From: an uncultured SAR86 cluster bacterium
GTDB taxonomy: Bacteria; Pseudomonadota; Gammaproteobacteria; Magnimaribacterales; D2472
Assembly: GCA_902596165.1 (NCBI GenBank)
Contig: CACJSU010000001.1
Span: 129,718-193,717 of the forward strand
DNA length: 64,000 nucleotides
Direction of reading: 5' to 3'
Of the stretch, positions 3,933-19,342 are shown one piece after another (the stretch's first letter is position 1; each line of letters starts with the position of its first letter). A model generated the notes under the pieces. It did no database searches. It was not told the origin of the DNA and saw nothing but the letters and a program-made list of their open reading frames with translations. A program made the position numbers and the translations under genes.

Positions 3933-4915
3933 AACTCGAACCAATTGTTTGGTTTGAAGAAGTAGTTAAAACCCATCAAACCATTGCCCCATTCATTAAT
4001 CACACTCAAGTGGTCACTTGTCCTGATTTAAATGAAGAACTTGCAGGTAAATATATTTTTAAACCTGAGTCGTTGCAAATTACTGGCTCTTTTAAAATAA
4101 GAGGCGCCCTCTCTGCTATTTCAAGGCTTTCAAAAGAGCAACTTAAACATGGTGTGATTGCCTACTCTTCAGGCAATCATGCGCAAGGTGTTGCTCATGC
4201 TGCTAAATTATTTAATACCCCAGCCATAGTGGTGATGCCTAAAGATGCGCCAGTGAAAAAGATTGAAAATACTAAGGCTTTTGGAGCTGATGTTGTTTTT
4301 TATGACAGAACCAAAGACAGCAGAGAGGAAATGGCTGCAGAGATTGCGAAAGAAAAAAACCTTGCATTAATAAAACCCTATGACTCACTTGCAACAATTT
4401 TCGGTCAAGCAACAGCAGCGTACGAAGTCATTCATGATGTGAACAATCCAAAGATTGATAATGCGATAATTTGTGCCGGTGGTGGCGGATTGACTGCTGG
4501 CTCATGCATTCCCTTGAAGCACGTTAATCCAGAGTGCAATATCTTTACCGCAGAACCTAAGGAGTGGAATGATCATGAGCAATCATTCAATGCAGCTAAA
4601 CGCATTGCAGTCGATACCAATAGGTATGGCTTGTGCGATGGCATTCTAACACCAACCCCTGGAGAGGTACCATTTGCAATCAATCAACATTATGGTGTAA
4701 CAGGCCTTTCTGCCTCAGATGAGATGATCTGCGAAGCCATGAGTTTTGCCTTCAATCGATTAAACTTAAAACTTGAACCCAGTGGCGCAGTGGCATTGGC
4801 ATGCCTGCTCGATAACAAAGAGAAATTTAAAGGCTCTAGAACCTTGATAATGCTATCTGGCGGAAATGTTGATGAAAAAACTTTTGCTGATTGTCTAGCA
4901 AGAGCTGCTAAGTAG
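3929..4915 (+). CDS. PLP-dependent threonine/serine dehydratase family enzyme
   Basis: A 328-residue fold-type II PLP enzyme. The Schiff-base lysine sits in ITGSFKIRGA, the substrate loop is SSGNHAQG, and the phosphate-binding glycine loop is CAGGGGLTAG, all in the order seen in biosynthetic and catabolic threonine dehydratases. It lacks the C-terminal ACT regulatory domains of long IlvA (about 500 residues), so it belongs with short threonine/serine dehydratases, serine racemases or 3-hydroxyaspartate dehydratases. The sequence does not let me choose among these. Translationally coupled to the upstream membrane-protein gene. Its end overlaps the convergent channel gene by 8 bp. Confidence 0.85.
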   Translation: MKLEPIVWFEEVVKTHQTIAPFINHTQVVTCPDLNEELAGKYIFKPESLQITGSFKIRGALSAISRLSKEQLKHGVIAYSSGNHAQGVAHAAKLFNTPAIVVMPKDAPVKKIENTKAFGADVVFYDRTKDSREEMAAEIAKEKNLALIKPYDSLATIFGQATAAYEVIHDVNNPKIDNAIICAGGGGLTAGSCIPLKHVNPECNIFTAEPKEWNDHEQSFNAAKRIAVDTNRYGLCDGILTPTPGEVPFAINQHYGVTGLSASDEMICEAMSFAFNRLNLKLEPSGAVALACLLDNKEKFKGSRTLIMLSGGNVDEKTFADCLARAAK

Positions 4916-5642
4916 ATTCAGATTCGTCCTTGTTTAATAGATCATCAATCCCAGCTCCACCAGTCATCACATCCACAATGACACCAATGACCATGTTTAA
5001 CAAAATTACTGCGTTGATAATGATAAAAGAAACAAAGAAAATCCAAGCATATGGATAGACTTCAATAACATTACCCATGATGGCAGCCCAGTCATCGTAG
5101 GTAGCAACTTGAACCAAGGTTATCAAAGCCAGACCTATGTTGCCCCAATGCTCTGGGTCTACTGATCCAAAGAACATGGTGCCAATGGCGCCCCAGACAT
5201 ACATAAAAATAAACATGAGCAAGGCAATGAAACCCACTCTGGGAATGGTTTTAACCAAAGAATCAATAATATGTCGGAATGCAGGAACCACGGTGATGAT
5301 TCGCAGCACTCGAATAATTCTTAGTAACCTGGCAACAAAAACGCTCTCAACATTGCTGATGGGTACCAAGGAAATTGTGACAATAAGAAAATCAAATATA
5401 TTCCAGCCATCTTTAAAAAATTTGACCAAAGATCTCTCAGAAATCATTCGAATAATTATCTCGATAACAAAGAATAAGGTGATGGCATAGTCAAATAGAT
5501 CTAAGTAAATAGTGTATTCAGGTGGTATGTTATAGGAGCTTACCCCTGCGTAAATAGCTGATGCCACTATGACAGCAATGACTATCCCGCTAAAGATTTT
5601 ACTGTTTCTTATTTTTAGAAAAAAGTTTACAAAACTATTCAT
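4908..5642 (-). CDS. Voltage-gated cation channel, single-domain BacNav/BacCav type
   Basis: A 244-residue single-domain channel: four voltage-sensor helices, a pore loop and S6, then a short acidic tail. S4 carries arginines at every third position (R105, R108, R111, R114 in ARLLRIIRVLR). S6 includes the NxVILLNMVIGVIVD stretch typical of bacterial sodium channels. The pore loop reads TYDDWAA at residues 181-187, where NavAb has TLESWSM, so the ring glutamate is replaced by aspartate and a second aspartate follows. The engineered Ca-selective CavAb has TLDDWSD. Calcium or mixed divalent permeability is therefore plausible but inferred. Forty-four bases separate it from the giant FecR gene; they hold no obvious terminator. 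Confidence 0.88.
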   Translation of the reverse strand: MNSFVNFFLKIRNSKIFSGIVIAVIVASAIYAGVSSYNIPPEYTIYLDLFDYAITLFFVIEIIIRMISERSLVKFFKDGWNIFDFLIVTISLVPISNVESVFVARLLRIIRVLRIITVVPAFRHIIDSLVKTIPRVGFIALLMFIFMYVWGAIGTMFFGSVDPEHWGNIGLALITLVQVATYDDWAAIMGNVIEVYPYAWIFFVSFIIINAVILLNMVIGVIVDVMTGGAGIDDLLNKDESEST

Positions 5643-5686: not shown

Positions 5687-8600
5687 TTAATCGACTAGAT
5701 AGATCCCTTCAGCGAAATAAAAATCATTGGCTCCAGCCGTGCCAGTATCGCCTGATTTATATAAATTGACATTCACTCTACCACCACTCTCATCGGGTGA
5801 TGAATCACCATATAAAGCTCCAGCCACAGACGCACCACCCAACCAAGAATTATCTAAGCTGTCGGTTGAATTGCCCGTGTAAGTATTATCGGTGCCAGAA
5901 ATAGCAACTGAGAAGGAAGCAAAGCCTGCATTATCAACAATGGGGTTCTTGTCATCAAAATTGGTGAAGGCTAGAGTACCAGAATAACCACTGGATCCCC
6001 AATTAAAGGTTGCTGCCACATCGGCCGTGGTGGTGTATTTGTGCACGTCGTAGTTGGTGCCGGTTTGATTGTAACGATAAGCCACATTCATCACCGCTGC
6101 CCCACTCATCGAAGCAGAGCCTGAAGTTGGTATTTCGCTTTGATCAACCACTTCACCGCCCACCCAAGTGCCTAAGTGCACCGAAGCATTCTGGGTACCA
6201 GCATTAGGTGAGACATCAACCGCACTCATGGCCCAAAAACCCCAAGTTGAATAAGCAGTATCGGGCATTGAATCATTACCGCCGGTGTGGAATAAATCAG
6301 CGTCCTCTTTATCTAACGTGTTATAAGAGACCATGACTCCAGCCAAGTTATTGGAACCCCCCGAAGTCCCATCAATTTGCGCGCCATCGTCTTGAATCTC
6401 AGCACCAAAGACTTCACTTGAAATGTAAGCTGATTTTGCCTCATCGTTGGTGGCATCCCCAAACTTCAAGGTCATAGAGCCGGTATCCACCGTACTCCAA
6501 TTAGACGTATAGTTATTTGAGGGTGCGGCGCTGATGGTCATGGGTGCGACCACTTGCACATCATCGTTGGTCGTATCAAACGTAAAGGTTGCAAGCGTGC
6601 TGCTTGAGCGAATCGAAGAAAGCTGAGAGTTACCTGTGCCACTGACATCAAATTCTAAAATACCACTGAAAAATCCGCTGTAACCCGTGGCACTTGAGGA
6701 GTAAAAATCCGAATGCCTAAACTCACTAAGAGTTTGTGATTGTTCTGCAGTGTTATTATCACTGATGAACTGAAAAGTTATTGCTTGATTGAATGAACCA
6801 GTTGAAAAAGAATCATTGTTGCTGTCGTAATTAACTCCTAAAGTCATGCTGCCAGATTTGTATGGGTCAGAGGAGGTCAGCATGAGTCCTTTAGGATAGG
6901 AGCTTGAATAACCAAAGAAACATCCACTGTCATGGGAAGTGGCACATTCGACGGGAGAAGTACCATAGACAAGTCCTAAACCATTATTGTCTGCATTGGT
7001 GGCGCCTTGATAAGACCAATAGTGATAACCATCCATACCATGACCAGTATCCCCTGCTGAGTATCGGGTGGTGTCGTTCTTACGGTAGTCAATATTAGAA
7101 ATCACGACGTTGAGTAAACTTTGTTGATCATCTCGAGTGGTGCTACCGGATGCACCATCGTATGAATCTTTGATAGAAATTTGAGCCCATAACCCAACAC
7201 CTACACCACTTGGATTGAGAACTTGCCACCAAAGAGACATCCCCTCTGGCACTCGTTGGTAAGAATTATCAAATCGATCAGAATATAAGTAACCCCCATT
7301 AAGGCTCTGAGTGTGGAAATCATAATTATTATCATAAGTTTGACACGCCGTTGAATTATTTCCCTGGGATGCACAGTAATCTAATCCAACATCCCCATAG
7401 GACCATGCAGAGCGATTAATAAAGTTAGGATAAAAATAATCATTGGTGGTACCAGTGGGAGCAAAATTTTCACGCGGTTGAACTGCAAATGCATAAACTT
7501 TTTTAGATGTGTTTATAGAAGTAAAATTAGAGTCTGTCTGAATTTCTCCAGCAATGGTGACCTGATCTTCATAGAGGTTGTAAGTGCTTGTTGTATTAGA
7601 CCCACCAGTTTGATTAGGCAAATCAGCTAAGGCATTAAGTAATTGTTGATTTTCTTCTTGAACATTATTAGTCTGCCACTCTATATCTGTAGACATAAAT
7701 ATATTGCCGTTGTATCCACTACCTAATTCACTTCCTGACCAAAATGAAAGAGAATGAGTAAGATTCACACCTGAGCCTGAAACCTGCGTTATTTTCGGTC
7801 CACAACCAGCACAATACCATTGATCTCCGCTTAAAGTTGAGAAAAGCGACGAGACAACCGAGCTAGAAATATCAAAGTTTTCAGTATCCACAGAACCATC
7901 CCTTGTAGCTGAACCAACTTCACCTCCGCCAACTGCATCCAATAAAAGATTGCCATAAGCTAGCATTTGAGCAGCTTGACAACACTGCTCGCCAGCTAAT
8001 AAGACAAGAGTGCTGGCGGGTGTTTCCAGCCAGGTTGCCAAATCACTTATTTCAGACGTATAGCTTGTTTTATTAGAATAACTAAGCCTGTAATCAACAA
8101 TAAGAGAATAACCACTAATATCATCAGGTAAATTGGTAGAGAGCGTTGCGCTATCTAACCCAGCAGCACTAATCGCAGAATTCCAACCAGCTCTACTGTA
8201 ACCAGTAGCGCTACCATAAATTATTAAGGTGCCACTCGCTCTGGCAAGGGCAGAAGTATAATCAATTTCAGCTGCAGACTTATCAGTGGTCATGAACCAA
8301 AATTCACCGCCGTGGGATCTTCCTGCAGTGATAAATTCTGAGTTGCTGATGGTGGTGGTAACAGCAGTACCTAGAGGACTATAGTACTTTCCATCCACTG
8401 AAGCACTGTTGGGTGCAAAGGCATACTGTCCATTGCCTGCAGTATCAATGGGGAAATAATAGCGCCAATTGAGATTAGTTCCAGAATTGATTTCTACTGG
8501 TACATAGTTGTTTGTGGTGTCATCTACGTTGGTAATAAGAATTGTATTCGTTGTTCCAACTTGCTCTAAAGTGTAGGCAGGCAAACTTGAGCCTGAAGGT

Positions 8601-11600
8601 CCGCGCGTAGCCGTGGCGCTAAAGCCACTTCTTGAAGCTGAGTTATAGGCTGCTGAGTAACGTAAAACCCCTGAACGAAGCTCTTCAACATTCCCTACAT
8701 TGACGGTAAAGGTATCGGTGGTGGTGTTGCCTCCTGCGGTGGCAGTCAAAGTTAAGCTATAACTTTTGGCCGTTTCAAAATCCAAGGTTGCATTGGTGGT
8801 GATATTACCCGAGCTGTCAACGGCAAAATTGCTGCTGCCGGTTCCACTGAGTGCGTAAGAGACGGTTTCGCTTTCTGGGTTGGTGATGCTTGAGCTGCCA
8901 ACAGTGGTGCCTGAACTGGAAGATTCTGCTAAAGCTGCGCCGCTGTTGGCCAGGGTTACGGCTAAGGTATTAATTTTTAAATCTGAAACGCTTAAAGTAA
9001 AAGTTTCAGAAGTTGTGGTCACCCCATCGGTCGCAGTAATCGTAAATTCATGCGAGGTCTTGGTTTCATAATCTAGTGCATTGGCCAGAGTGACTGCACC
9101 GGTTGAACTGTCAATCGTAAACTTATTGTCAGCATCGGTTAAAGAGTAAGTCACGGTACCTTCAGCATTGGAGGTAGAAGAAGTTGCAATGGAGGTGCCC
9201 GTTGAAATACCCTCACTTTGAGCAGCGGATGCCAAGCTAGCGCTTAGAGATAAGTCTACATCTGTAATATTAATCGTTAGGCTGTCAGTAACTGTATTAG
9301 TACCATCGCTTGCGGTTAGAGTTAATGAGTAAGAGGTGGTTGTTTCATAATCCAGGCTTGCTGCTGTGGTGATGGTGCCATCTGAAGAGACTGCAAATTT
9401 ATCACTGCCGGTGCCTGAAAGAGAATAAGTCACGCTGCCGCTGCCATCGGTGGTGGTTGTGGTGGTGGTTACGCTTGTCCCAGATGTCGCAGTCTCACTG
9501 AGACTGATTGATGAGCTGGCCAAGGCAATCGATAGCTCAATAACATCATCCACGCTAACATTAATGGTGTTTGACGTGCTGTTTGTGCCATCACTGGCAG
9601 TCAGTGTTAGGGAATAGGAAGTGGTGGTCTCATAATCCAATGCACTGGATAAAGTAATGTTACCTGCAGAATCTACGGCAAACTTATCGCTGCCAGTTCC
9701 ACTCAAGGAGTAAGTAATGGTTTGCGCTTCAGGATCTGAAGCTGAAGCTGATGCGATGGTGGTTCCAGTTGCAATATTTTCCGCAAAGGAAGATGCGGCC
9801 AATGAATTAGTCAGACTTGGGGCTTCATTAACATCATCAATTGTAATAGTAAGAGTATTGTTGGTTGTGTTTACTCCATCCGAAGCACTTAAAGTTAAAC
9901 TGTAGGAAGTTGCTGTTTCATAATCTAAACCAGCTGCAACTGTAATATTTCCAGCAGAATCAACTGCAAAATTGCCACTGCCAGTCCCGCTCAACGAATA
10001 AGTGATGGCTTGTGATTCTGGGTCTGAGGCTGAGGCTGTTGCGATGGTGGTTCCGGTGGAGACATTCTCCGCAAAGGAAGATGCAGCTAAAGAGTTAGAG
10101 AGAATTGGTGCCTCATTAACATCATCAACCGTAATGATTAATTCTGATGTGGTGGTATTCACTCCATCGGATGCATTTAAAGCTAGGGTATAACTTGTTG
10201 CAGTTTCATAATCTAGTGAATTAACCAATGAGATATTGCCTGAGCTATCGACACTGAAGTTTTCACTCCCTGTACCTGAAAGACTAAAAGTAACAGTTTG
10301 ACCTTCTGGATCTGTTGCTGAGGCAGTACCTATGTTGATGCCAGTGAGACTGTCTTCAGCAAAACTAGTCGCGGAGGTACTGGCAGTTAAAATGGCAGGT
10401 TCATCAATATCAATAACGCTGAAACTAATTTCAAAGACGGTGTCATTCACTCCATCGCTGGCAGTGAGTGTTAGGTCGTAACTGGTGGTGGTCTCATAAT
10501 CTAATTCAGTCTGTAATGAAATATTTCCATTTGCATCCACGCTAAAATTTTCGCTGCCCTCTCCCGAGAGAGTAAATGAAATGTCTCCCCCTTCAGGGTC
10601 TATGGCTGTACTTTCTAAAATAGCTGACTGTAAATCAATGTTTTCTGCAAACGAATCAGCCAGCAAGTTTGAAGTTAATTCAATGGGTTCATCGATGTTG
10701 GTTACATCTAAAAGCACTTCTATTTCTGAAATATCGGCATTCTCAGATTCAATGGTCACAGTGAAGGAAAGCTTGGTTTGAGTTTCATAATCAAGTTCAC
10801 TGATTAGATTAATCGACTGGGTTTCGGTATCAAATTCAACCAGTTCAGCATCATCACCAGAAATGGTGACCGAATATGATAGTTCGCCTGGATTGATAAA
10901 AACTAGAGGGGTAAGTGTTTCATTGGCCACGTTTTCACTGATGGATTCAATGGACTCACCCGCATCGACTTGGAAGATGGGTGCAACCTCAACGGTGGTT
11001 TCTTGCGTTGTTTCAGCTACCTCCTCGGCCACATCCTCGGTTGGGTTCTCGTTGGCATCATCGGCCTCTACAGTTTCAAGCTCAATGGCCACCTCAAATT
11101 CTTCCGCCGTGCCAAGCTCTTCAGGTGCAACATCCGAAGACACATCGGACACACCAGAGGAATCCAATAAACCTTCATCGACTTCTATGTCGGTTGAATC
11201 GCCGGCATCATCGCTTGCCACTTCGGTTTCAGTTTCAATTTCTGTTGTTGCTGCAGTTTCAGTTTCGTTTGATTCAGGAGCAGTCTCTTCAACTGGAGTT
11301 TCTTCAGCTGGCGTCTCTTCGCTTGAAGTTTCTTCACTAGAAGCTGACTCCTCTTCTTGAGTCTCCTCGGCTGGAGTTTCCTCAGCTGGTGTTTCTTCAG
11401 CAGCAGCTTCTTCTTCTGGGGCTTCTTCGGGTGCTTCTAATTCTTCTTGTATGGCTTCCAAACTTTCTTCGGTGACCTCAACTGGTTCGCTGGGTTCAGA
11501 ATCTTCATCTTCGACTGAGACGGAAAACCCTGGTTCGGTCACGGTCGTGGCAAAATCAGCAGAGCATTGATCGCCAAAAGTATCGAGATCAACACAATTA

Positions 11601-12091
11601 GGGGTCACGGTCATCTCAGTTCCATAAAGGAAAGTTGCATTGGTTTGCGGGCCATTGGTTTGCACTATCCCAATACCGCCTCTGATTCCAACCGTGGCTG
11701 AATTGGTTCGAATTAAGGCAGGTTGTTTTTTGGTAACCTTGCCGCCAACAATTCTCAGCAGACCTCTAGCTGTAACCTCGAGCGAGCCTTCAGCCGTCTC
11801 AGGGTTATAAATAAACTTATCTAAAACAACGCTTGAATTAGGTCCAACCGAAAAAGCTGTGCCATCGAGCAACAACATTTGCGCCCTACCAATGCCATCG
11901 GTTTCGATGGTGTGGTTTTGAATGATTTCATAGCCTGCATCGATAAGCTTGCGTTCTTGCTCCAGCGTCAAATCGGTAGTGTTTTTATTAACGGCAGATG
12001 CAACACCAATTTGCTCTTGCGCCATGGCCTCCTCATTAGCTAGCAAGGCCATTAACAACATTGATAAATATAATTTATTAAATGATTTCAA
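5687..12091 (-). CDS. Giant exported FecR-cadherin protein with TbpB-like C-terminal barrel; candidate T11SS cargo
   Basis: 2134 residues. Order: signal peptide (cleavage near AMA-Q, residue 24); FecR-like domain about residues 45-150, including the RTNSATVGIRGG segment; acidic Glu/Thr/Pro-rich linker about 190-355; about eight cadherin-like repeats about 400-1135, each with an LDYET...SYxLTLxASDG core; a central alpha/beta-looking region about 1265-1500 with cysteine pairs GEQCC and YCAGC; a beta-rich region; and a C-terminal segment about 1890-2134 whose Gly/Ser/Asn-rich alternating strands (WGFWAM, HLGTWVGGE, FYFAEGIYL) resemble TbpB-type 8-strand barrels. The start is TTG, two bases after the stop of the upstream barrel gene, preceded by AGAGAG; the encoded n-region has lysines as expected. 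Cadherin/Ca-binding adhesion is family knowledge. The barrel assignment is my reading of pattern, not a search. Confidence 0.8.
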   Translation of the reverse strand: MKSFNKLYLSMLLMALLANEEAMAQEQIGVASAVNKNTTDLTLEQERKLIDAGYEIIQNHTIETDGIGRAQMLLLDGTAFSVGPNSSVVLDKFIYNPETAEGSLEVTARGLLRIVGGKVTKKQPALIRTNSATVGIRGGIGIVQTNGPQTNATFLYGTEMTVTPNCVDLDTFGDQCSADFATTVTEPGFSVSVEDEDSEPSEPVEVTEESLEAIQEELEAPEEAPEEEAAAEETPAEETPAEETQEEESASSEETSSEETPAEETPVEETAPESNETETAATTEIETETEVASDDAGDSTDIEVDEGLLDSSGVSDVSSDVAPEELGTAEEFEVAIELETVEADDANENPTEDVAEEVAETTQETTVEVAPIFQVDAGESIESISENVANETLTPLVFINPGELSYSVTISGDDAELVEFDTETQSINLISELDYETQTKLSFTVTIESENADISEIEVLLDVTNIDEPIELTSNLLADSFAENIDLQSAILESTAIDPEGGDISFTLSGEGSENFSVDANGNISLQTELDYETTTSYDLTLTASDGVNDTVFEISFSVIDIDEPAILTASTSATSFAEDSLTGINIGTASATDPEGQTVTFSLSGTGSENFSVDSSGNISLVNSLDYETATSYTLALNASDGVNTTTSELIITVDDVNEAPILSNSLAASSFAENVSTGTTIATASASDPESQAITYSLSGTGSGNFAVDSAGNITVAAGLDYETATSYSLTLSASDGVNTTNNTLTITIDDVNEAPSLTNSLAASSFAENIATGTTIASASASDPEAQTITYSLSGTGSDKFAVDSAGNITLSSALDYETTTSYSLTLTASDGTNSTSNTINVSVDDVIELSIALASSSISLSETATSGTSVTTTTTTTDGSGSVTYSLSGTGSDKFAVSSDGTITTAASLDYETTTSYSLTLTASDGTNTVTDSLTINITDVDLSLSASLASAAQSEGISTGTSIATSSTSNAEGTVTYSLTDADNKFTIDSSTGAVTLANALDYETKTSHEFTITATDGVTTTSETFTLSVSDLKINTLAVTLANSGAALAESSSSGTTVGSSSITNPESETVSYALSGTGSSNFAVDSSGNITTNATLDFETAKSYSLTLTATAGGNTTTDTFTVNVGNVEELRSGVLRYSAAYNSASRSGFSATATRGPSGSSLPAYTLEQVGTTNTILITNVDDTTNNYVPVEINSGTNLNWRYYFPIDTAGNGQYAFAPNSASVDGKYYSPLGTAVTTTISNSEFITAGRSHGGEFWFMTTDKSAAEIDYTSALARASGTLIIYGSATGYSRAGWNSAISAAGLDSATLSTNLPDDISGYSLIVDYRLSYSNKTSYTSEISDLATWLETPASTLVLLAGEQCCQAAQMLAYGNLLLDAVGGGEVGSATRDGSVDTENFDISSSVVSSLFSTLSGDQWYCAGCGPKITQVSGSGVNLTHSLSFWSGSELGSGYNGNIFMSTDIEWQTNNVQEENQQLLNALADLPNQTGGSNTTSTYNLYEDQVTIAGEIQTDSNFTSINTSKKVYAFAVQPRENFAPTGTTNDYFYPNFINRSAWSYGDVGLDYCASQGNNSTACQTYDNNYDFHTQSLNGGYLYSDRFDNSYQRVPEGMSLWWQVLNPSGVGVGLWAQISIKDSYDGASGSTTRDDQQSLLNVVISNIDYRKNDTTRYSAGDTGHGMDGYHYWSYQGATNADNNGLGLVYGTSPVECATSHDSGCFFGYSSSYPKGLMLTSSDPYKSGSMTLGVNYDSNNDSFSTGSFNQAITFQFISDNNTAEQSQTLSEFRHSDFYSSSATGYSGFFSGILEFDVSGTGNSQLSSIRSSSTLATFTFDTTNDDVQVVAPMTISAAPSNNYTSNWSTVDTGSMTLKFGDATNDEAKSAYISSEVFGAEIQDDGAQIDGTSGGSNNLAGVMVSYNTLDKEDADLFHTGGNDSMPDTAYSTWGFWAMSAVDVSPNAGTQNASVHLGTWVGGEVVDQSEIPTSGSASMSGAAVMNVAYRYNQTGTNYDVHKYTTTADVAATFNWGSSGYSGTLAFTNFDDKNPIVDNAGFASFSVAISGTDNTYTGNSTDSLDNSWLGGASVAGALYGDSSPDESGGRVNVNLYKSGDTGTAGANDFYFAEGIYLVD
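8690..10880 (-). repeat. Tandem array of about eight cadherin-like repeats (period about 280-298 bp)
   Basis: On the plus strand the complement of the LDYET core (xTTTCATAATCxA) recurs near 8785, 9064, 9343, 9628, 9926, 10204, 10490 and 10781, giving a unit of about 93-99 codons. Copies around 9.6-10.2 kb are the most alike at DNA level; the first and last copies are more diverged. The regularity explains the many antisense open frames in this stretch. Confidence 0.85.
11025..11520 (-). repeat. Low-complexity acidic linker (Glu/Thr/Pro repeats)
   Basis: Encodes short repeats of the type EETPAEETP, EESASSEE and EVTEES between the FecR and cadherin parts of the giant protein. Such linkers are usually extended and flexible. 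The repeated GAA/ACT/GCT codons make this stretch prone to slippage and length change between strains. Confidence 0.75.
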
Positions 12092-12093
12092 TG

Positions 12094-13443
12094 TTACTCT
12101 CTGGATCTGGCAATGGGGCCCTTAAAGCATTGATAGTTCACTTGAGCAGACAAATTGCTTCCACTACGTTTATAAATATTGATGGTGCTGTGAGTACCGG
12201 TCAGCACCCATCCAAAGTTCAAAGACCAACAAGCGCCGATGGGTTTGAGAAAATTAAATCTTAAAGTTTCCATCTGGTCATGTCGGTCGCCAAAAAGAGG
12301 GTAATCTTCGTCATGCGATTTATCTTGGTAGCTATACTTGGATGAAAATTGCCAATTTTCTTTTAAAGGCTGTGAATAGCTAAATTCAATTCCATAATTT
12401 TCATAAAACTCATAGCCTGCATTTGCTCGATAGTTTTCAAGTATGATCTTATAGCCATACAAAGCTTGTGAACCTGGCCAAACATAGCTTTGGCCAAAAC
12501 TAATTCCATTAATACGGCCATTTTTTTGTCTACCTGATTTAAAAGTCTTCTCATCGCGATAATATGAAAAAAGCATGGAGGACCCATCATCCAATTGCCC
12601 GCTATAATCAAGTGAAATTCGGCTACTGCGTAATATTTCTTCTCGATTCAGAAAAATCCTTAAAAGATTTATGTTGGGGCTAAAAACAGGGTCTTCTAAA
12701 TTAAAAAAAGAAAAATAATTTTCATCTAAATTAAAGTTTCTTCTGGCTGACAAGACATTGCTTTGTATATCGAATTGAGTATAAGTATTGAATCGATCAG
12801 CGCCATAACTAAAAAAGTATTGAATATTATCCCCACGAGGATGATTTAAGTCCTGATCAATGCTTAAAGAATAATTGTATAAGGTTGACTGATCTCCCTC
12901 TCTCTTGCTTTCAGGGTCAACATCTAACAAAAAATCACCAATTTCAATAAAATCAGCATTAATGCCTGAATTACCATTGGTTGTGTGCTTCCATCCAAGG
13001 CTTAAGTTTTGCCGCCATTTAAACGGCTCTTCTGCAGATACTATGGCCTCTAGAAATTGATCAACCCTAGCTTCTACCTCAGGCGGTGGATTAAACTCTT
13101 TGACACTCTTAAGATAATTATTGGCCAAAGCATAAGCTCCCAGACGGAAATACAAAACACCGAGCTCTAATCTGATTCTTGGAAGCTCTGAATCATAGAT
13201 AAGCATTTGCTCAAAAACACCTATGGCACCCTCTAGATCCCCAACCAAAATAGATAAGTTGGCATATTTAAACAACATAGATAGATTTGTTGGATCTTTA
13301 AATAATTGTTTAAAAACTTCTTCTTTTTGCTGCTGCGCTGCTGCAAGTTCTTCAGGATCAGTTAGGGTGGGTTGAACGTTTTGCGCAGATAGGTCTAAGC
13401 ACAATAAAGTGCCTAAAACTAACAAAAAAGCCCTGTATTTCAT
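12094..13443 (-). CDS. TPR plus outer-membrane beta-barrel protein, Slam/DUF560-like
   Basis: 449 residues: signal peptide (cut near LSAQ), a periplasmic helical region about 33-140 with TPR-like spacing (FKYANLSILVGDLEGAIGVFEQML, split here only as a description; LRLELGVLYFRLGAYALANNYL-type helices), then a strand-rich domain from about residue 145 to near the end. The barrel begins with FKWRQNLSLGWKHTTNGNSGIN, close to the G-x-DSNIN opening of surface lipoprotein assembly modifiers (Slam, DUF560), which move TbpB-like cargo through the outer membrane (type 11 secretion). Size fits the family. The next gene, two bases downstream, encodes a giant protein with a barrel-like C-terminus, which is what a cargo should look like. 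The last strand is followed by a basic tail KGPIARSRE, unusual for a barrel. No Shine-Dalgarno is seen. Confidence 0.65.
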   Translation of the reverse strand: MKYRAFLLVLGTLLCLDLSAQNVQPTLTDPEELAAAQQQKEEVFKQLFKDPTNLSMLFKYANLSILVGDLEGAIGVFEQMLIYDSELPRIRLELGVLYFRLGAYALANNYLKSVKEFNPPPEVEARVDQFLEAIVSAEEPFKWRQNLSLGWKHTTNGNSGINADFIEIGDFLLDVDPESKREGDQSTLYNYSLSIDQDLNHPRGDNIQYFFSYGADRFNTYTQFDIQSNVLSARRNFNLDENYFSFFNLEDPVFSPNINLLRIFLNREEILRSSRISLDYSGQLDDGSSMLFSYYRDEKTFKSGRQKNGRINGISFGQSYVWPGSQALYGYKIILENYRANAGYEFYENYGIEFSYSQPLKENWQFSSKYSYQDKSHDEDYPLFGDRHDQMETLRFNFLKPIGACWSLNFGWVLTGTHSTINIYKRSGSNLSAQVNYQCFKGPIARSRE

Positions 13444-13516
13444 GGTAGTGTTGGGAAGGTATATTTCAATCCACTAAATATCAAACCCTAATATGGTGCT
13501 TATTTAACCATAAATG

Positions 13517-13533
13517 TGACAATTTATCATTTA
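13517..13533 (+). promoter_or_regulatory. 17-nt element shared with the promoter of the small HTH gene
   Basis: TGACAATTTATCATTTA here recurs exactly on the minus strand at 22495-22511. Both copies point towards a regulator gene and begin 63-65 nt before its start codon. The core TGAYAAWTTRTCA is a near-palindrome, so it could be an operator, or just a -35 region (GTGACA/ATGACA) with a similar spacer. Confidence 0.35.
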
Positions 13534-13569
13534 AAAAAGATATAAAAGAAACTATTGTATTTCAAAGGT

Positions 13570-13575
13570 TATAAT
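13570..13575 (+). promoter_or_regulatory. -10 hexamer TATAAT, 6 nt before the TetR-type start
   Basis: A consensus TATAAT ends 6 nt before the ATG at 13582, so transcription would begin at or next to the start codon. No Shine-Dalgarno stands at a useful distance. No convincing -35 is seen at 16-18 nt. Confidence 0.5.
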
Positions 13576-13581
13576 GCTCTC

Positions 13582-14187
13582 ATGAAAAAGTCTGAGCTCA
13601 CAAAAGCTAAGCTGGTAAAAGCGGTTGTTGATCTAATAAATAGTGGTCAAAAAATTTCTGTTGGCAGCATTTCAAAACAAGCAAAAACTGCTTATGGAAG
13701 CTTTTATAGATATTTTAATAATCTTGATGAGATACATGAGGCTGCAATCATTCAAGTAGTTCTTGAAAGGGCCGATAGTCTCGAAAAAGAGCTAGAAAGT
13801 GAAAAATCAAACCTATTCAAAGTTTACTATGGCTGGTTTGTAGCTATCGACTTATATAAAGATACCTACACTGCTAACTGGTTAATTGAAAATCCAAATA
13901 GCATCAATCAAGCATGGGCTTTGACGACTCCGCTGACTCAGTCATGGTTAAAAGAAGCCATCAAATCAAAAGAAGAGCCGGGCTTAACTGATGAAAATTT
14001 AAGACATTTTAAATTGGCTTCATCATATATCTATTGGACTTATCAACATGCATTAAGAGAATTGCTTAGAGGTAGAAAAACCATTCATGTTTTTGCAGAT
14101 TTAATGAATTCAGTAAACCTCCTGGATCTACCCAGAAAAACTCATAAAAAATATCTTCAAAAAGTTGCTGATTTTGTTAAGGGTTAA
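13582..14187 (+). CDS. TetR-family transcriptional regulator
   Basis: About 201 residues from the ATG at 13582; a TTG at 13555 in the same frame would place the likely -10 box inside the coding region, so I prefer the ATG. The N-terminal helix-turn-helix reads SVGSISKQAKTAYGSFYRYFNNLDEI, with the GSFYRYF turn that marks TetR proteins. The C-terminal ligand domain is helical and not recognisable by substrate. It is transcribed away from the Slam-like/giant-protein operon and is followed, 11 bp later, by the adenylate cyclase gene, so it may control both directions from the 110-bp divergent gap. That control is inferred from position only. Confidence 0.85.
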   Translation: MKKSELTKAKLVKAVVDLINSGQKISVGSISKQAKTAYGSFYRYFNNLDEIHEAAIIQVVLERADSLEKELESEKSNLFKVYYGWFVAIDLYKDTYTANWLIENPNSINQAWALTTPLTQSWLKEAIKSKEEPGLTDENLRHFKLASSYIYWTYQHALRELLRGRKTIHVFADLMNSVNLLDLPRKTHKKYLQKVADFVKG

Positions 14188-14198
14188 AAAAACTTAAC

Positions 14199-16382
14199 AT
14201 GAAAAAAGACTACAAAAAATTTTCTAGATATGGTCTTATCGGTTTCGCTATTTTTGTAAGTTTTTTACCCATTTTTAATCCTCTGCAAATTTTTACCAGT
14301 CTTCAAAATTATTCTTTTGATACCTTTCAAAGAATTTTACCTAGGGAGGTATATTCTGAAGATCCTGTTGTTATCATTGATATTGATGATCGTTCGCTTG
14401 CAGAAATTGGACAATGGCCCTGGTCAAGAAATCAATTAGCGAAACTAACCAATCAAGCATATGCAGCAGCTGCCTTAGGCTTTGATATTGTGTTCGCAGA
14501 ACCAGATAGAACCAATCCACAAAATTTAATTGCCAATTATTCTTTTGATGAAGCGATAAACAAGGAACTAGCCGCCCTTCCAAGCAATGATGAGCTCTTT
14601 GCTGATGCTATTTCAAAACATGGAACTGTGGTCCTTGGTCAGGCATTAAATAATAAAGATAATACCAAACCCTCCAAAAATAAATTTGGGTTAGTGACTC
14701 AAGGCGATGACCCTAAGCAATTCATTGCAAATTATCTGGGTACACAAAATAACATTAAAATTCTTGATGATTCGGCCAGTGGAGTTGGCTCAATGAGCAT
14801 TGGAAATAATGATGTAATTGTTCGTCAATTACCTACGTTTGAGAGAATTGATGAGCAGTTAGTGCCAAGTCTTGCCCTCGAGATGACAAGGGTTGCAGTC
14901 GGCGCCTCAACTTTTCAAATTAAATCATCCAATGCATCAAGCGAAGAGGCCTATGGTGCTCAAACTGGTATCAATAACATCAAATTAGGCCCTCTCACCA
15001 TCCCAACAACACCAGAAGGAAATGCGTGGATTTACTTCGCACCAACTAAAGATATTCTGTCAGTCTCAGCCATTGATGTAATATCAGGAACAATACCGCC
15101 TGAATTTTTTGAGGGCAAGGTAGCGCTTGTAGGAACTTCAGCTGCTGGATTGCTAGATCTCAGATCTACGCCCACAGAAAAAAATGTTCCGGGAGTAACA
15201 ATCATTGCACAGTTTATGCAGCAAATTTTTGCCAATGAATTTTTACAAAGGCCTGACTGGCTTTTTGGAGCTGAATTTATTGCCGGGCTTTTCTTGGCTG
15301 TATTGATTACTCTGGGTATTCAGGCTTTAGGACCCATTGGTGGATTAAGCATATTTCTTGTCGGGTCCGGTGGAATCATGGGTTCAAGTTATTATTTTTT
15401 TAAATCTAAACTCTTTTTGGTTGATCCGATATCTCCTTTGATAATTTCATTGAGTGTTTATGTGGCAGTCACTTTTTTTAATTTTCTATTTACTGAACTT
15501 GAACGCAGCAGAGTAAGAGGAGCTTTTGCACAATATCTTTCTCCTGAAATGGTCAATCGTTTGGCTGAATCGAGCGAATCATTGGTTCTTGGCGGAGAGA
15601 GAAAAGAAATGACTTTTTTGTTCTCAGATATTAGAGGGTTTACTAAAATATCTGAACAATATAAGGACGACCCAGAGGGTTTGACGCAATTAATCAATGA
15701 ATTGCTTACCGTTTTGTCTAATGCAATTCTAGATCATGGTGGAACCATAGATAAATACATGGGTGATTGCATCATGGCTTTTTGGAATGCACCTACCGAT
15801 CAAGCAGACCATCGTCAACTAGCAATTCAGGCAGCGCACTCAATGAATGAAGCTTTAGATCAATTCAATGATGAAACAGATGGAAATATAGATTTCAAGC
15901 TTGAAATAGGTATTGGAATCAATTCTGGAAACTGTATTGTTGGCAACATGGGTTCGGATAAGCGCTTTGATTATACCGTCCTTGGTGATGCGGTTAACTT
16001 AGCCTCCAGACTTGAAAGTCAATCCTCTAATTATGGCCTACACATGATAATTGGCGAAAATACTTACATTGATGATTCAACTTTTACGATTATTGAAATT
16101 GACAAAATTGCCGTTAAAGGCAAATCTTCTGCCGAGACAATTTATACCTGCTTTAAACCAGAGGCTAAATTTACAAAAGGATTTATTGAAAAACACAAAG
16201 CTTTTTTACAAGAATATAGAATGCAAAACTGGGAAGTGGCTATTTCATTAATTGATGAATTAATACCTTCCTCAAATGACCTTGAACTATACTACCAACA
16301 CATGAAAGAAAGAATTCAAGAATATCTTACTAATCCACCATCTGCTGATTGGGAAGGAGTCTATGTTGCTAAAAATAAATAA
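14199..16382 (+). CDS. CHASE2-domain class III adenylate cyclase
   Basis: 727 residues: N-terminal membrane helix (about 12-28), a large extracytoplasmic CHASE2 domain (about 35-335, opening DPVVIIDIDDRSLAEIGQWPWSR), three membrane helices (about 355-430), then a class III cyclase domain (about 465-640). Catalytic residues are complete: metal aspartates D477 (FSDIRGFT) and D523 (KYMGDCIM), base-selecting K519 and T593, and transition-state N600 and R604 (DAVNLASRLE). The Lys/Thr pair is that of class IIIb adenylate cyclases, so cAMP is the expected product. CHASE2 is a sensor domain of unknown ligand. Downstream genes encode an outer-membrane-like protein, an MscS channel and a cyclic-nucleotide-binding K+ channel, the last being a natural cAMP target. 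The 3' end overlaps the next gene by 20 bp. Confidence 0.92.
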   Translation: MKKDYKKFSRYGLIGFAIFVSFLPIFNPLQIFTSLQNYSFDTFQRILPREVYSEDPVVIIDIDDRSLAEIGQWPWSRNQLAKLTNQAYAAAALGFDIVFAEPDRTNPQNLIANYSFDEAINKELAALPSNDELFADAISKHGTVVLGQALNNKDNTKPSKNKFGLVTQGDDPKQFIANYLGTQNNIKILDDSASGVGSMSIGNNDVIVRQLPTFERIDEQLVPSLALEMTRVAVGASTFQIKSSNASSEEAYGAQTGINNIKLGPLTIPTTPEGNAWIYFAPTKDILSVSAIDVISGTIPPEFFEGKVALVGTSAAGLLDLRSTPTEKNVPGVTIIAQFMQQIFANEFLQRPDWLFGAEFIAGLFLAVLITLGIQALGPIGGLSIFLVGSGGIMGSSYYFFKSKLFLVDPISPLIISLSVYVAVTFFNFLFTELERSRVRGAFAQYLSPEMVNRLAESSESLVLGGERKEMTFLFSDIRGFTKISEQYKDDPEGLTQLINELLTVLSNAILDHGGTIDKYMGDCIMAFWNAPTDQADHRQLAIQAAHSMNEALDQFNDETDGNIDFKLEIGIGINSGNCIVGNMGSDKRFDYTVLGDAVNLASRLESQSSNYGLHMIIGENTYIDDSTFTIIEIDKIAVKGKSSAETIYTCFKPEAKFTKGFIEKHKAFLQEYRMQNWEVAISLIDELIPSSNDLELYYQHMKERIQEYLTNPPSADWEGVYVAKNK

Positions 16383-17121
16383 GTTTAAATACATGATAAT
16401 CTTTGCAATGTGCTTAAGCTCATTAAATGTTTTGGCTCAAGCCATTGTTAATATTGAAGATTTGAGGCGTGAAGGCGAGGTTGGATTTTTTACAAGCATT
16501 AGCGCTAATCTCTATGCAGCTCGCGGTAATAGAGACAGAGATTATTACTCAGCGCAACTAAGGTTTGATAATAATTCCGAAAAAGCAGAGTCTTTTCTAA
16601 TTCTTCAGCAAAGCGAAAGAAAGTCTAACGATAAACTGATGGACAAATCAACCTTCATGCATGGGAGATATATTTGGGTTGGTGATGAGGCTATTAACTG
16701 GGAGGTTTTTGCACAATACAGTGAAAACCCCTTCAGAAATTATAAAAAAAGATCCGTCCTTGGAGGCGGCCTAAGATATGAACTTTCCAAATCAGCCCGT
16801 CTTGGTACTGGTCTGCTCAATGAAGAAGAGACAGATCTTGCTGGACAATCTAAAATAACAGATCGCTTAGGTTTTTACCTTCATAATTCTTTCGAGGTAG
16901 CAGAAAATATTTTCTTCAAACCTACTGTATATTTCCAACCAAGCTTAGATGATTTTGAGAATGACTACAAAGCAAGTATGATTTTAGCCTTAGATTTTAA
17001 AGTAAATGAAAATTTTAAGATAACGATGCAGTATTCATCTTTTCATGACTCAGATCCGCCTTTGTTGGCTGAGAAAAACGATGAATCAATCTCTACTATG
17101 TTTTCATATAACCTAAATTAA
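16363..17121 (+). CDS. Exported strand-rich protein, DUF481-like outer-membrane candidate
   Basis: 252 residues with an N-terminal signal peptide (MIIFAMCLSSLNVLAQA; a second ATG at 16393 is possible). The mature part alternates charged and aromatic residues in short strands (SANLYAARG, YYSAQLRFDNN, WEVFAQYSENPF, LGGGLRYEL) and ends in FSYNLN, which fits a small beta-barrel of the DUF481/YdiY kind. I cannot assign it firmly. A GGAAGGAG at 16352-16359 inside the cyclase gene precedes the start, and the genes overlap by 20 bp, so it is coupled to the cyclase. An outer-membrane partner for the cyclase-channel operon is possible but unproven. Confidence 0.6.
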   Translation: MLLKINKFKYMIIFAMCLSSLNVLAQAIVNIEDLRREGEVGFFTSISANLYAARGNRDRDYYSAQLRFDNNSEKAESFLILQQSERKSNDKLMDKSTFMHGRYIWVGDEAINWEVFAQYSENPFRNYKKRSVLGGGLRYELSKSARLGTGLLNEEETDLAGQSKITDRLGFYLHNSFEVAENIFFKPTVYFQPSLDDFENDYKASMILALDFKVNENFKITMQYSSFHDSDPPLLAEKNDESISTMFSYNLN

Positions 17122-17123
17122 TT

Positions 17124-18290
17124 ATGGAAGGATTTTTACAAATTTTTACAAACGTCTGGGAAGAAGGCCTCTTAGGTATTGGTATAACCGAGATAATCGT
17201 ATCAATGCTCATATTTATAGCTGGAGCCATAAGCAGAGCTTTTTTTGTTGGCAGAGTGCTTAAATGGTTGGAACAACTTACTGCCCATACTGAATCTGAG
17301 GTAGATGATGTTCTACTGGAATCTTTAAAAAAACCTCTAGGATATATTCCTATGACGGTTGCCCTTTACTTTATTACTGTCTATCTTCCTCTTTCAGGCA
17401 TGGCTGATACTTTTGCTACAAATCTAGTAAAAGCAATGATAGCTTTTACCATTTTTAGTGCTCTAGCCAACAGCATTGCTCCAATTTTTCAAGCTTTTAC
17501 TTCAAGCGCTGTTCTCACCAGATCCATGACCATGTGGCTTGAAAGAGCTGCAAGAATAATAATTTGGATTATTGGGCTTGGAATCATACTGGATATCTTT
17601 GGTATTCAAATTGGTCCATTGGTTGCTGGTCTTGGATTATTTTCCGTAGCTGTTGCCCTCGGGGCACAAGATCTATTTAAAAATCTTATCTCAGGGTTAT
17701 TAATTATCGGAGAAAACAGATTTCAACCAGGCGATCGAATCGAAGTTCCTGGCTCTTTACATGGCATGGTTGAAGACATAGGTTTTAGATCAACCCTCGT
17801 CAGAATGTTTGATACGGCTCCAATGCTAGTACCAAACAAGGATCTTTCAGACGTAAAAGTGATCAATCATGGCAACATGGAGTACAGAAGAATTAGCTGG
17901 ACCCTAAATCTTATCTACTCAACCACTCAAGAGCAATTAGCTAAAATTTGTGGAGAAATTACAAACTTTATTAATACCTCTAGTGAATTTGTGATTAATC
18001 CCAATCAAGAATCGTTTGCTAGAACCGATGAGCTAGCTTCAAGCTCAATTGATGTAAGAGTTCTCTGCTACACAGATCCAGTTGGCTTAACTGATTTTTC
18101 TAAGATTAAACAAAATCTAATTTTTGAAATTATTAAAATTGTTCGAAGTAATGGTTCTGAGTTTGCATATCCTTCAACTTCTGTTTATGTCGAAAATACA
18201 GATCCTTTGGATGTTGCAAATTACTCTACAGAAGGTTTAAAAGCTAAAGATATATCTCATGAAGCTGCTCCTGATAAAGGAGACGATTAA
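17124..18290 (+). CDS. MscS-family mechanosensitive channel
   Basis: 388 residues. Several N-terminal membrane helices precede the pore helix GPLVAGLGLFSVAVALGAQDLFKNLISG, which has the Gly/Ala packing pattern of MscS TM3, followed by the cytoplasmic beta domain (FQPGDRIEVPG, MVEDIGFRST, LVPNKDLSDVKVINHG). It releases ions and solutes when the membrane is stretched. It starts 2 bp after the outer-membrane-like gene, so it belongs to the cyclase operon. The tail overlaps the end of the convergent cyclic-nucleotide channel gene by 4 bp. No extra nucleotide-binding domain is visible in this one. Confidence 0.9.
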   Translation: MEGFLQIFTNVWEEGLLGIGITEIIVSMLIFIAGAISRAFFVGRVLKWLEQLTAHTESEVDDVLLESLKKPLGYIPMTVALYFITVYLPLSGMADTFATNLVKAMIAFTIFSALANSIAPIFQAFTSSAVLTRSMTMWLERAARIIIWIIGLGIILDIFGIQIGPLVAGLGLFSVAVALGAQDLFKNLISGLLIIGENRFQPGDRIEVPGSLHGMVEDIGFRSTLVRMFDTAPMLVPNKDLSDVKVINHGNMEYRRISWTLNLIYSTTQEQLAKICGEITNFINTSSEFVINPNQESFARTDELASSSIDVRVLCYTDPVGLTDFSKIKQNLIFEIIKIVRSNGSEFAYPSTSVYVENTDPLDVANYSTEGLKAKDISHEAAPDKGDD

Positions 18291-19315
18291 TCCGCTGTTC
18301 TGTTTGAAGCGCTGAGTTCTAATTCCTGAAAGAGTTTAGGATGCTCCTCAGATAGTTCAGCTAAATCCGATTTAGTAAGCTCAAGTAATTTTGTATCATC
18401 GGCCGCAGTAATGGTTGCATTACGTGGTACATTTCCAAGTAAACCCATTTCTCCAAAGTAATCGCCAGCAACAAGAAAAACTGGCTGCTCAATTTCAACT
18501 TTGACCTTTCCATACTCAATGATAAACATCGAATCAGCTTCATCTCCTTTAGAGAAAATAGTCTCATGCTCACTCACCAAAACCACTTGGAGTTTTTCAT
18601 TGATTTTACCAACAGCTCCAATAGGAAGCTCTTGAAATAGTGGCACAGATGCGATGGCTTCAAAGCTAACTAAGAAATTCTTCTTTTGAATCTCTTCATA
18701 ATATGCAGAAGCAAGAATAGCCGCAGGCAAAGCAAACATTCCTATCCCAACTAACATGGTAAAACTTGCTAGTAACTTACCGAGATCAGTCATAGGAACA
18801 ACATCACCATAACCCACCGTAGTTAAGGTCGCTATGCCCCACCACATCGTAGATGGAATACTCCCAAAGACATCAGGTTGTACTGAAGATTCCAAAAAAT
18901 GTATAAATGTTGATACAACTAACAAGATCGAAATCACCATAATTTGCGATCCAAGCAAGGCATTTCTCTGCTTGATGATTGTTTTAACTAACGTGTTTGT
19001 GGGTAATAAAAATCTGGACTGACTAAAAATATCAAACAATCTAAATAATCGAAGAATTCTTAAATCATAAATAGAAAAAAATACTTGGTTAACTAAGACC
19101 AGTCCATCAATTGATAGCAAAAATGATAATCTCTTTTCTACTAGAGCTCTTAAAAGCAACTCAATTGCAAAAATGATAATAGAAGTTAAGTACAAGCCCC
19201 TAAAGATGGGCGCATCAACAGTCAGATAGCCAGCACTTGATACAATTTGATGAAAGATATTAATAGCAATCACAGCTCCAAAAAATTTATTTAATTTATC
19301 GAGTGCATTTTTCAT
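18287..19315 (-). CDS. K+ channel with C-terminal cyclic-nucleotide-binding domain
   Basis: 342 residues: four voltage-sensor-like helices with a short basic S4 (LRILRLFRL), pore with the K+ filter TTVGYGD, S6, a linker, and a CNBD (about residues 220-335). The phosphate-binding cassette reads FGEMGLLGNVPRNATI, with the glycine-glutamate pair and the phosphate-contacting arginine in place; RNAT matches cNMP binders. It is the same architecture as MloK1 and SthK channels. It lies tail to tail with the cyclase operon, so cAMP made by the CHASE2 cyclase could gate it; this coupling is inferred. TATAAT lies 6 nt before the ATG with no Shine-Dalgarno, suggesting a leaderless mRNA. Confidence 0.92.
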   Translation of the reverse strand: MKNALDKLNKFFGAVIAINIFHQIVSSAGYLTVDAPIFRGLYLTSIIIFAIELLLRALVEKRLSFLLSIDGLVLVNQVFFSIYDLRILRLFRLFDIFSQSRFLLPTNTLVKTIIKQRNALLGSQIMVISILLVVSTFIHFLESSVQPDVFGSIPSTMWWGIATLTTVGYGDVVPMTDLGKLLASFTMLVGIGMFALPAAILASAYYEEIQKKNFLVSFEAIASVPLFQELPIGAVGKINEKLQVVLVSEHETIFSKGDEADSMFIIEYGKVKVEIEQPVFLVAGDYFGEMGLLGNVPRNATITAADDTKLLELTKSDLAELSEEHPKLFQELELSASNRTAD

Positions 19316-19321
19316 AATGTG

Positions 19322-19327
19322 ATTATA
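19322..19327 (-). promoter_or_regulatory. -10 hexamer TATAAT, 6 nt before the K+ channel start
   Basis: On the minus strand the sequence is TATAAT-CACATT-ATG. The geometry predicts a transcript starting at the start codon. The -35 is unclear. Confidence 0.5.
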
Positions 19328-19342
19328 ACTTGAGTCTGTGAT

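Follow-up and report, generated by a model that had tools for sequence, protein, structure and literature searches.

What would an open-ocean bacterium do with a predicted exported protein of more than two thousand residues, encoded directly behind an outer-membrane protein? The question is raised by a gene pair in a 64,000-nucleotide stretch of DNA (the window; contig CACJSU010000001.1, positions 129,718 to 193,717) from an uncultured SAR86 cluster bacterium, whose 1.45 Mb genome is 86.6% complete. An initial annotation of this window described a TPR plus barrel protein followed two bases later by a giant exported protein ending in what looked like a TbpB-type barrel, and open reading frames, Pfam and AlphaFold2 agree with that description. 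Both frames were found on the minus strand, as are all features of the pair given below, at 13443..12094 (449 residues) and 12091..5687 (2134 residues), with two bases between the stop of the first and the start of the second. The TTG start of the second gene aligns with an ATG start in close relatives, and congeneric close relatives have the two genes overlapping or almost contiguous. We refer to the proteins as the exporter and the giant; the latter (224 kDa, isoelectric point 4.05) has by inspection a type I signal peptide with no lipobox cysteine, its first Cys being residue 166. Our analysis indicates that the two are probably an exporter and cargo of type 11 secretion system (T11SS) kind, a judgement that leaves aside the anchoring step considered further below.

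The exporter (12094..13443) is a Slam-like outer-membrane protein of the DUF560/T11SS superfamily by profile comparison and model. Its N-terminal TPR domain (approximately residues 27-137; 13033..13365) was recognized by Pfam TPR_19 (E-value 3.3e-5), a family found in 27 of 27 exporter homologues, seven of which also matched TPR_Slam. An AlphaFold2 model built from an alignment of 27 relatives (mean predicted local distance difference test (pLDDT) score 84.7) has a helical N-terminal domain followed by a 14-strand beta-barrel (residues 141-441; 12121..13023; pLDDT mostly 85-98). In the published layout, Slams combine a TPR domain with a barrel predicted to have 14 strands (PMC5449769), and the N-terminal helices and 14 strands of the model match this. 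Profile comparison of the full-length exporter gave 99.7% (5.7e-27) against 13 gammaproteobacterial Slam-like proteins and 98.2% (2.9e-14, 352 columns) against 19 Moraxellaceae Slams, and this Slam-like group scored 99.9% against the Slams. Barrel-only profiles were also compared, so that the TPR part alone could not drive the match: the exporter barrel scored 98.7% against the gammaproteobacterial Slam-like group, the barrels of that group 99.3% against Slam barrels, and the pooled barrels of the exporter and this intermediate group 98.7% against Slams. Reversed-alignment controls for these comparisons gave 0.8-12.6%, and the control barrel families DUF481 and TonB receptors gave at most 12% against the exporter. 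Because the barrel-only and pooled matches are high and the reversed and other-barrel controls low, membership of the 449-residue protein in the Slam/DUF560 superfamily, as a remote branch, is supported by sequence profiles.

The closest solved folds to the exporter barrel by VIA were CymA (Z 21.9) and the 14-strand porin OmpG (Z 20.3); the PDB matches listed by Foldseek and VIA did not include a Slam structure, to which we attach no weight against membership. The top Foldseek match was BcsC, and this rank raised the candidate of a BcsC/PgaA-type TPR-barrel polysaccharide exporter with the giant as an unrelated neighbour. We rejected this candidate on the basis of the 14 strands of the model and the strong profile matches to Slam-like proteins and Slams; the close co-occurrence of the gene with a protein carrying a Slam-cargo barrel also argues against it, and overall we regard it as very improbable. 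The window's exporter also has eight additional C-terminal residues (GPIARSRE, 12094-12120), which are present in one other locus (L003) and missing from most relatives.

The evidence for a cargo comes from the C-terminus of the giant. An AlphaFold2 model of residues 1566-2134 (mean pLDDT 71.5, predicted TM-score 0.83) has a handle or pedestal at residues 1790-1920 (6332..6724), which aligned with the TbpB C-lobe and fHbp, and an eight-strand TbpB-type barrel at residues 1921-2134 (5690..6331), the presumed export signal. Over the last 190 residues the 10-residue pLDDT means are mostly 85-95. The 240 residues initially assigned to such a barrel were about right in length. All 36 of the 36 PDB fold matches at E-values of 0.001 or less were to TbpB, LbpB, HpuA, fHbp or NHBA, and all 50 matches listed by VIA-align fall in this same group, including the TbpB C-lobe (Z 13.1 over 196 residues at 4.1 A) and NHBA (Z 11.4 over 142 residues at 2.4 A). 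TbpB, LbpB, HpuA and fHbp are Slam-dependent, and T11SS cargo of solved structure share this fold without sequence similarity (PMC5449769). In its predicted structure, then, the C-terminus of the giant folds like known Slam cargo. At another locus (L056, 65-1684) a related C-terminal module is joined to long stretches of Ser-rich repeats, where no cadherins are visible; the module thus occurs in more than one architecture.

The two genes also travel together. Among 60 SAR86 genomes, many of them incomplete, 22 hold both genes, two only the exporter, three only the giant and 33 neither (Fisher p = 4e-11); their co-occurrence is not due to chance. In the SAR86 family of the window and in part of another, they lie side by side. 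In one genome (L063, the same genome as G020:C9) a single exporter gene is followed by two tandem giants (10328-16774 and 16895-19342), an arrangement that fits an exporter serving several cargoes.

The giant is ordered as signal peptide, FecR domain, acidic linker, eight cadherin repeats, variable cassette, handle and eight-strand barrel. The FecR domain (residues 61-157; 11621..11911) scored 21 bits in a scan of the full-length protein and 28.3 bits in a whole-genome scan (cut-off 24), where it was the sole FecR found in the 86.6%-complete genome. It is followed by a low-complexity linker (residues 196-395; 10907..11506) in which 60 of 200 residues are Glu, and by eight cadherin repeats (approximately residues 396-1160; 8612..10906), which Pfam Cadherin matched in eight stretches (262 bits, 3e-79) and each of which has one LDYE/LDFE motif at a spacing of ~96 residues. 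Between the cassette and the handle lies a beta-rich region (residues 1505-1789; 6725..7579) of partly conserved sequence, whose modelled fold is of low confidence.

Alignment of full-length giants showed the two ends to be highly conserved (residues 61-180, with the FecR domain, 88-100% identical; the handle and barrel mostly 80-100%), in contrast to residues 1261-1500, which had 10-43% identity in nine of ten relatives. Here a conserved flank (residues 1180-1284; 8240..8554) precedes a hypervariable cassette (approximately residues 1285-1495; 7607..8239). Over the 61 pairs of giants in which this flank is at least 80% identical, median cassette identity was 16%, with 55 pairs at 45% or less and four at 70% or more; for example, the giants of loci L067 and L062 have flanks 98 and 100% identical around a cassette with 26% identity. 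The cassette had no match in Pfam and none among PDB sequences. This pattern suggests replacement by recombination together with exposure to a changing partner, and the cassette varies as would be expected of a site of contact with a ligand, prey, host or phage.

FecR genes accompany such exporters well beyond SAR86. A search of 185 Gammaproteobacteria with Pfam SlipAM (PF04575) revealed that a FecR gene comes after many of the Slam-like genes; all nine of the nine partners scanned in this set scored above the Pfam FecR cut-off, as did additional partners, and in two of the scanned partners a LysM domain precedes FecR (weak matches). In a second, phylum-wide search, FecR lay directly downstream on the same strand in 20 of the best 30 exporter loci, and within the fetched flank in 24 of the 30; one of these loci (L153) had also contributed to the FecR model. 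By comparison, none of 23 classical Slam loci had a FecR gene. Profile comparison was used to ask whether a TbpB-type barrel also terminates the partners of other bacteria: the SAR86 C-terminus matched other FecR partners only weakly, at 6.9% (local) and 14.7% (global), with shuffled and reversed controls at 0.0-0.6% and earlier alignments at 1-4%, and the two sets have W-G-x-W and barrel-end motifs in common, which is suggestive only. When the surroundings of Moraxellaceae Slams were searched by motif for cargo, only one protein was identified. A full-text search, which covered open-licence papers and leaves absence unproven, turned up no publication in which FecR occurs together with DUF560 or the term "surface lipoprotein assembly modifier". 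The widespread pairing of exporter and FecR partner, of which we found no description, is new relative to the initial annotation, as are the hypervariable cassette and the argument for a periplasmic FecR.

The genes around the pair may hint at a different function. Those scanned encode a TetR-like regulator situated between the exporter and CHASE2 genes (13555..14187, plus strand; weak domain match, E-value 0.004), a divergent CHASE2-guanylate/adenylate cyclase (14199..16382, plus strand; domain scan), DUF481 and MscS proteins, and an ion channel (4908..5642, minus strand) that follows the giant here and directly follows the exporter in SAR86 loci without a giant at this position. Neither a sigma factor nor a TonB receptor was present among these scanned neighbours, so that the FecI-type context usual for FecR was not found (the membrane helix itself was assessed only by visual inspection). 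The CHASE2 cyclase gene adjoins the exporter in nearly all related SAR86 loci and CHASE2 recurs at the FecR/Slam-like loci L119 and L122. One could therefore read the FecR protein as wholly periplasmic, an envelope sensor or scaffold that works with the exporter, signals to the CHASE2 cyclase and is not exported at all. The existence of many partners with no evident barrel would fit this reading, as would an operon of Burkholderia biofilm regulation that holds LysM-FecR and CHASE2-kinase genes together (PMC5192318). However, the size of 224 kDa, the eight cadherins, the TbpB-type C-terminus and the hypervariable cassette are better suited to surface exposure, and we consider a purely periplasmic giant improbable.

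Based on the family of the exporter and the fold of the giant's C-terminus, we favor export of the giant by its neighbour, and by analogy with known systems the following route can be outlined. Sec signal peptides, predicted from sequence, would bring both proteins into the periplasm, where the giant would be kept unfolded, as Slam moves unfolded TbpB, whose export needs the holdase Skp (PMC9090332), a protein that SAR86 relatives possess. The Slam-like exporter would then recognise the C-terminal eight-strand barrel; since Slam is thought to read a specificity motif at the cargo C-terminus (PMC9090332), by analogy the giant's barrel would lead, and the protein would pass the 14-strand pore C-terminus first. 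Outside, the handle and barrel, the cassette and the eight-cadherin stalk would fold, probably with calcium, and the stalk would display the cassette. The giant likely serves in recognition or adhesion on the outside of the cell.

Where this leaves the FecR domain is harder to say. We tentatively place it in the periplasm, where it might hold the fibre, with the TPR domain of the exporter as a possible holding site; this is a step about which we are slightly more doubtful than confident. The placement draws on FecR being what the partners of this exporter group share, on the LysM found ahead of it in two of these partners and on the giant having no lipid anchor. The giant could instead be exported whole, with FecR also leaving the cell as a surface or released domain, as in soluble T11SS cargo; such soluble non-lipidated cargo do exist (PMC12282271), and the giant does not have a lipobox. 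Yet FecR recurs among the exporter's downstream partners and belongs to the best conserved regions of the giant, unlike the cassette, and the LysM domains, weak matches as they are, suggest contact with peptidoglycan, which makes export of the whole protein rather unlikely in our view. Of the initially proposed T11SS pair with a FecR sensor head, then, the pairing is supported by family, fold and co-occurrence, and the surface sensor head is the less favoured part, FecR more likely marking the periplasmic end. Neither of the two outcomes that the initial annotation named as refuting it, a match of the 449-residue protein to another barrel family or a giant C-terminus without a barrel fold, was observed.

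Several observations weigh against a T11SS pair with its FecR end anchored in the periplasm. The exporter scored 18.4 bits against Pfam SlipAM, under the cut-off of 22 (the family matched weakly in three of the 27 homologues), and its barrel compared with classical Slams directly, without the intermediate group, reached only 24%. The giant's barrel was detected by fold only, with no Pfam match and none among PDB sequences. In a third SAR86 family the giants are located elsewhere in the genome. We did not find Skp in this 86.6%-complete genome; as 18 of 21 SAR86 genomes have it (17 above the Pfam cut-off), the gap is probably missing sequence. Many of the FecR partners outside the Gammaproteobacteria, and most of those in the phylum-wide set (L188-L199), have C-terminal tails rich in Pro and Gly in which no barrel is evident, so that the FecR pairing may follow another logic and the barrel rule is not general. 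The anchoring step, finally, draws on the position of LysM and FecR only. In that third family, five loci (L077, L079, L081, L083 and L084) have CHASE2, exporter and ion channel genes in this order and lack an intervening giant, and so represent an empty site relative to the window.

Taken further, these proteins could represent a distinct T11SS class across Pseudomonadota, in which a FecR (or LysM-FecR) end is anchored periplasmically and the C-terminal part displayed at the surface, the SAR86 version being a fibre of cadherins whose hypervariable recognition domain is exchanged by recombination; we offer this as a speculation that is somewhat doubtful in its full breadth. A FecR gene downstream of the exporter would provide a simple rule by which partners could be recognised across many environmental genomes, and the pairing may help explain secreted FecR proteins with no adjacent sigma factor. 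From a streamlined bacterium of the open ocean one would not expect a giant variable surface protein, which suggests that the cell makes contact with phages, prey or particles.

Ten clusters of T11SS exporters have been described, with experimentally proven cargo in cluster 1 only and the cargo of marine exporters an open question (PMC12282271). The Slam1 and Slam2 systems of Neisseria and Moraxella, in cluster 1, are alike in having a TPR plus 14-strand barrel exporter and cargo (TbpB, LbpB, HpuA and fHbp) with a handle and a C-terminal eight-strand barrel; however, these cargo are much smaller lipoproteins, while the giant has 2134 residues, is non-lipidated and carries FecR, cadherins and a variable cassette, and the window's exporter is remote from theirs (98.2% at full length but a weak match when only the barrels are compared). 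Soluble T11SS cargo (haemophilin and HrpC) and the Pls-like cargo of Haemophilus parahaemolyticus (PMC8406197, PMC12282271) resemble the giant in that a type I signal peptide is possible and long N-terminal regions precede the barrel, but the giant differs by its FecR and cadherin domains, neither of which appears in the main text of these two main T11SS papers, in which cargo architectures are listed. Cluster 3 of the Rhodobacteraceae (PMC12282271) likewise comprises marine exporters of uncertain cargo, whose partners are DUF1194 proteins or lipoproteins of 282-375 residues rather than a FecR giant. Lastly, FecR-LysM proteins (COG4254) encoded next to CHASE2 proteins, as in the Burkholderia BiofilmReg operon (PMC5192318), share the secreted FecR protein beside a CHASE2 gene, whereas no outer-membrane exporter, cadherins or barrel are described there.
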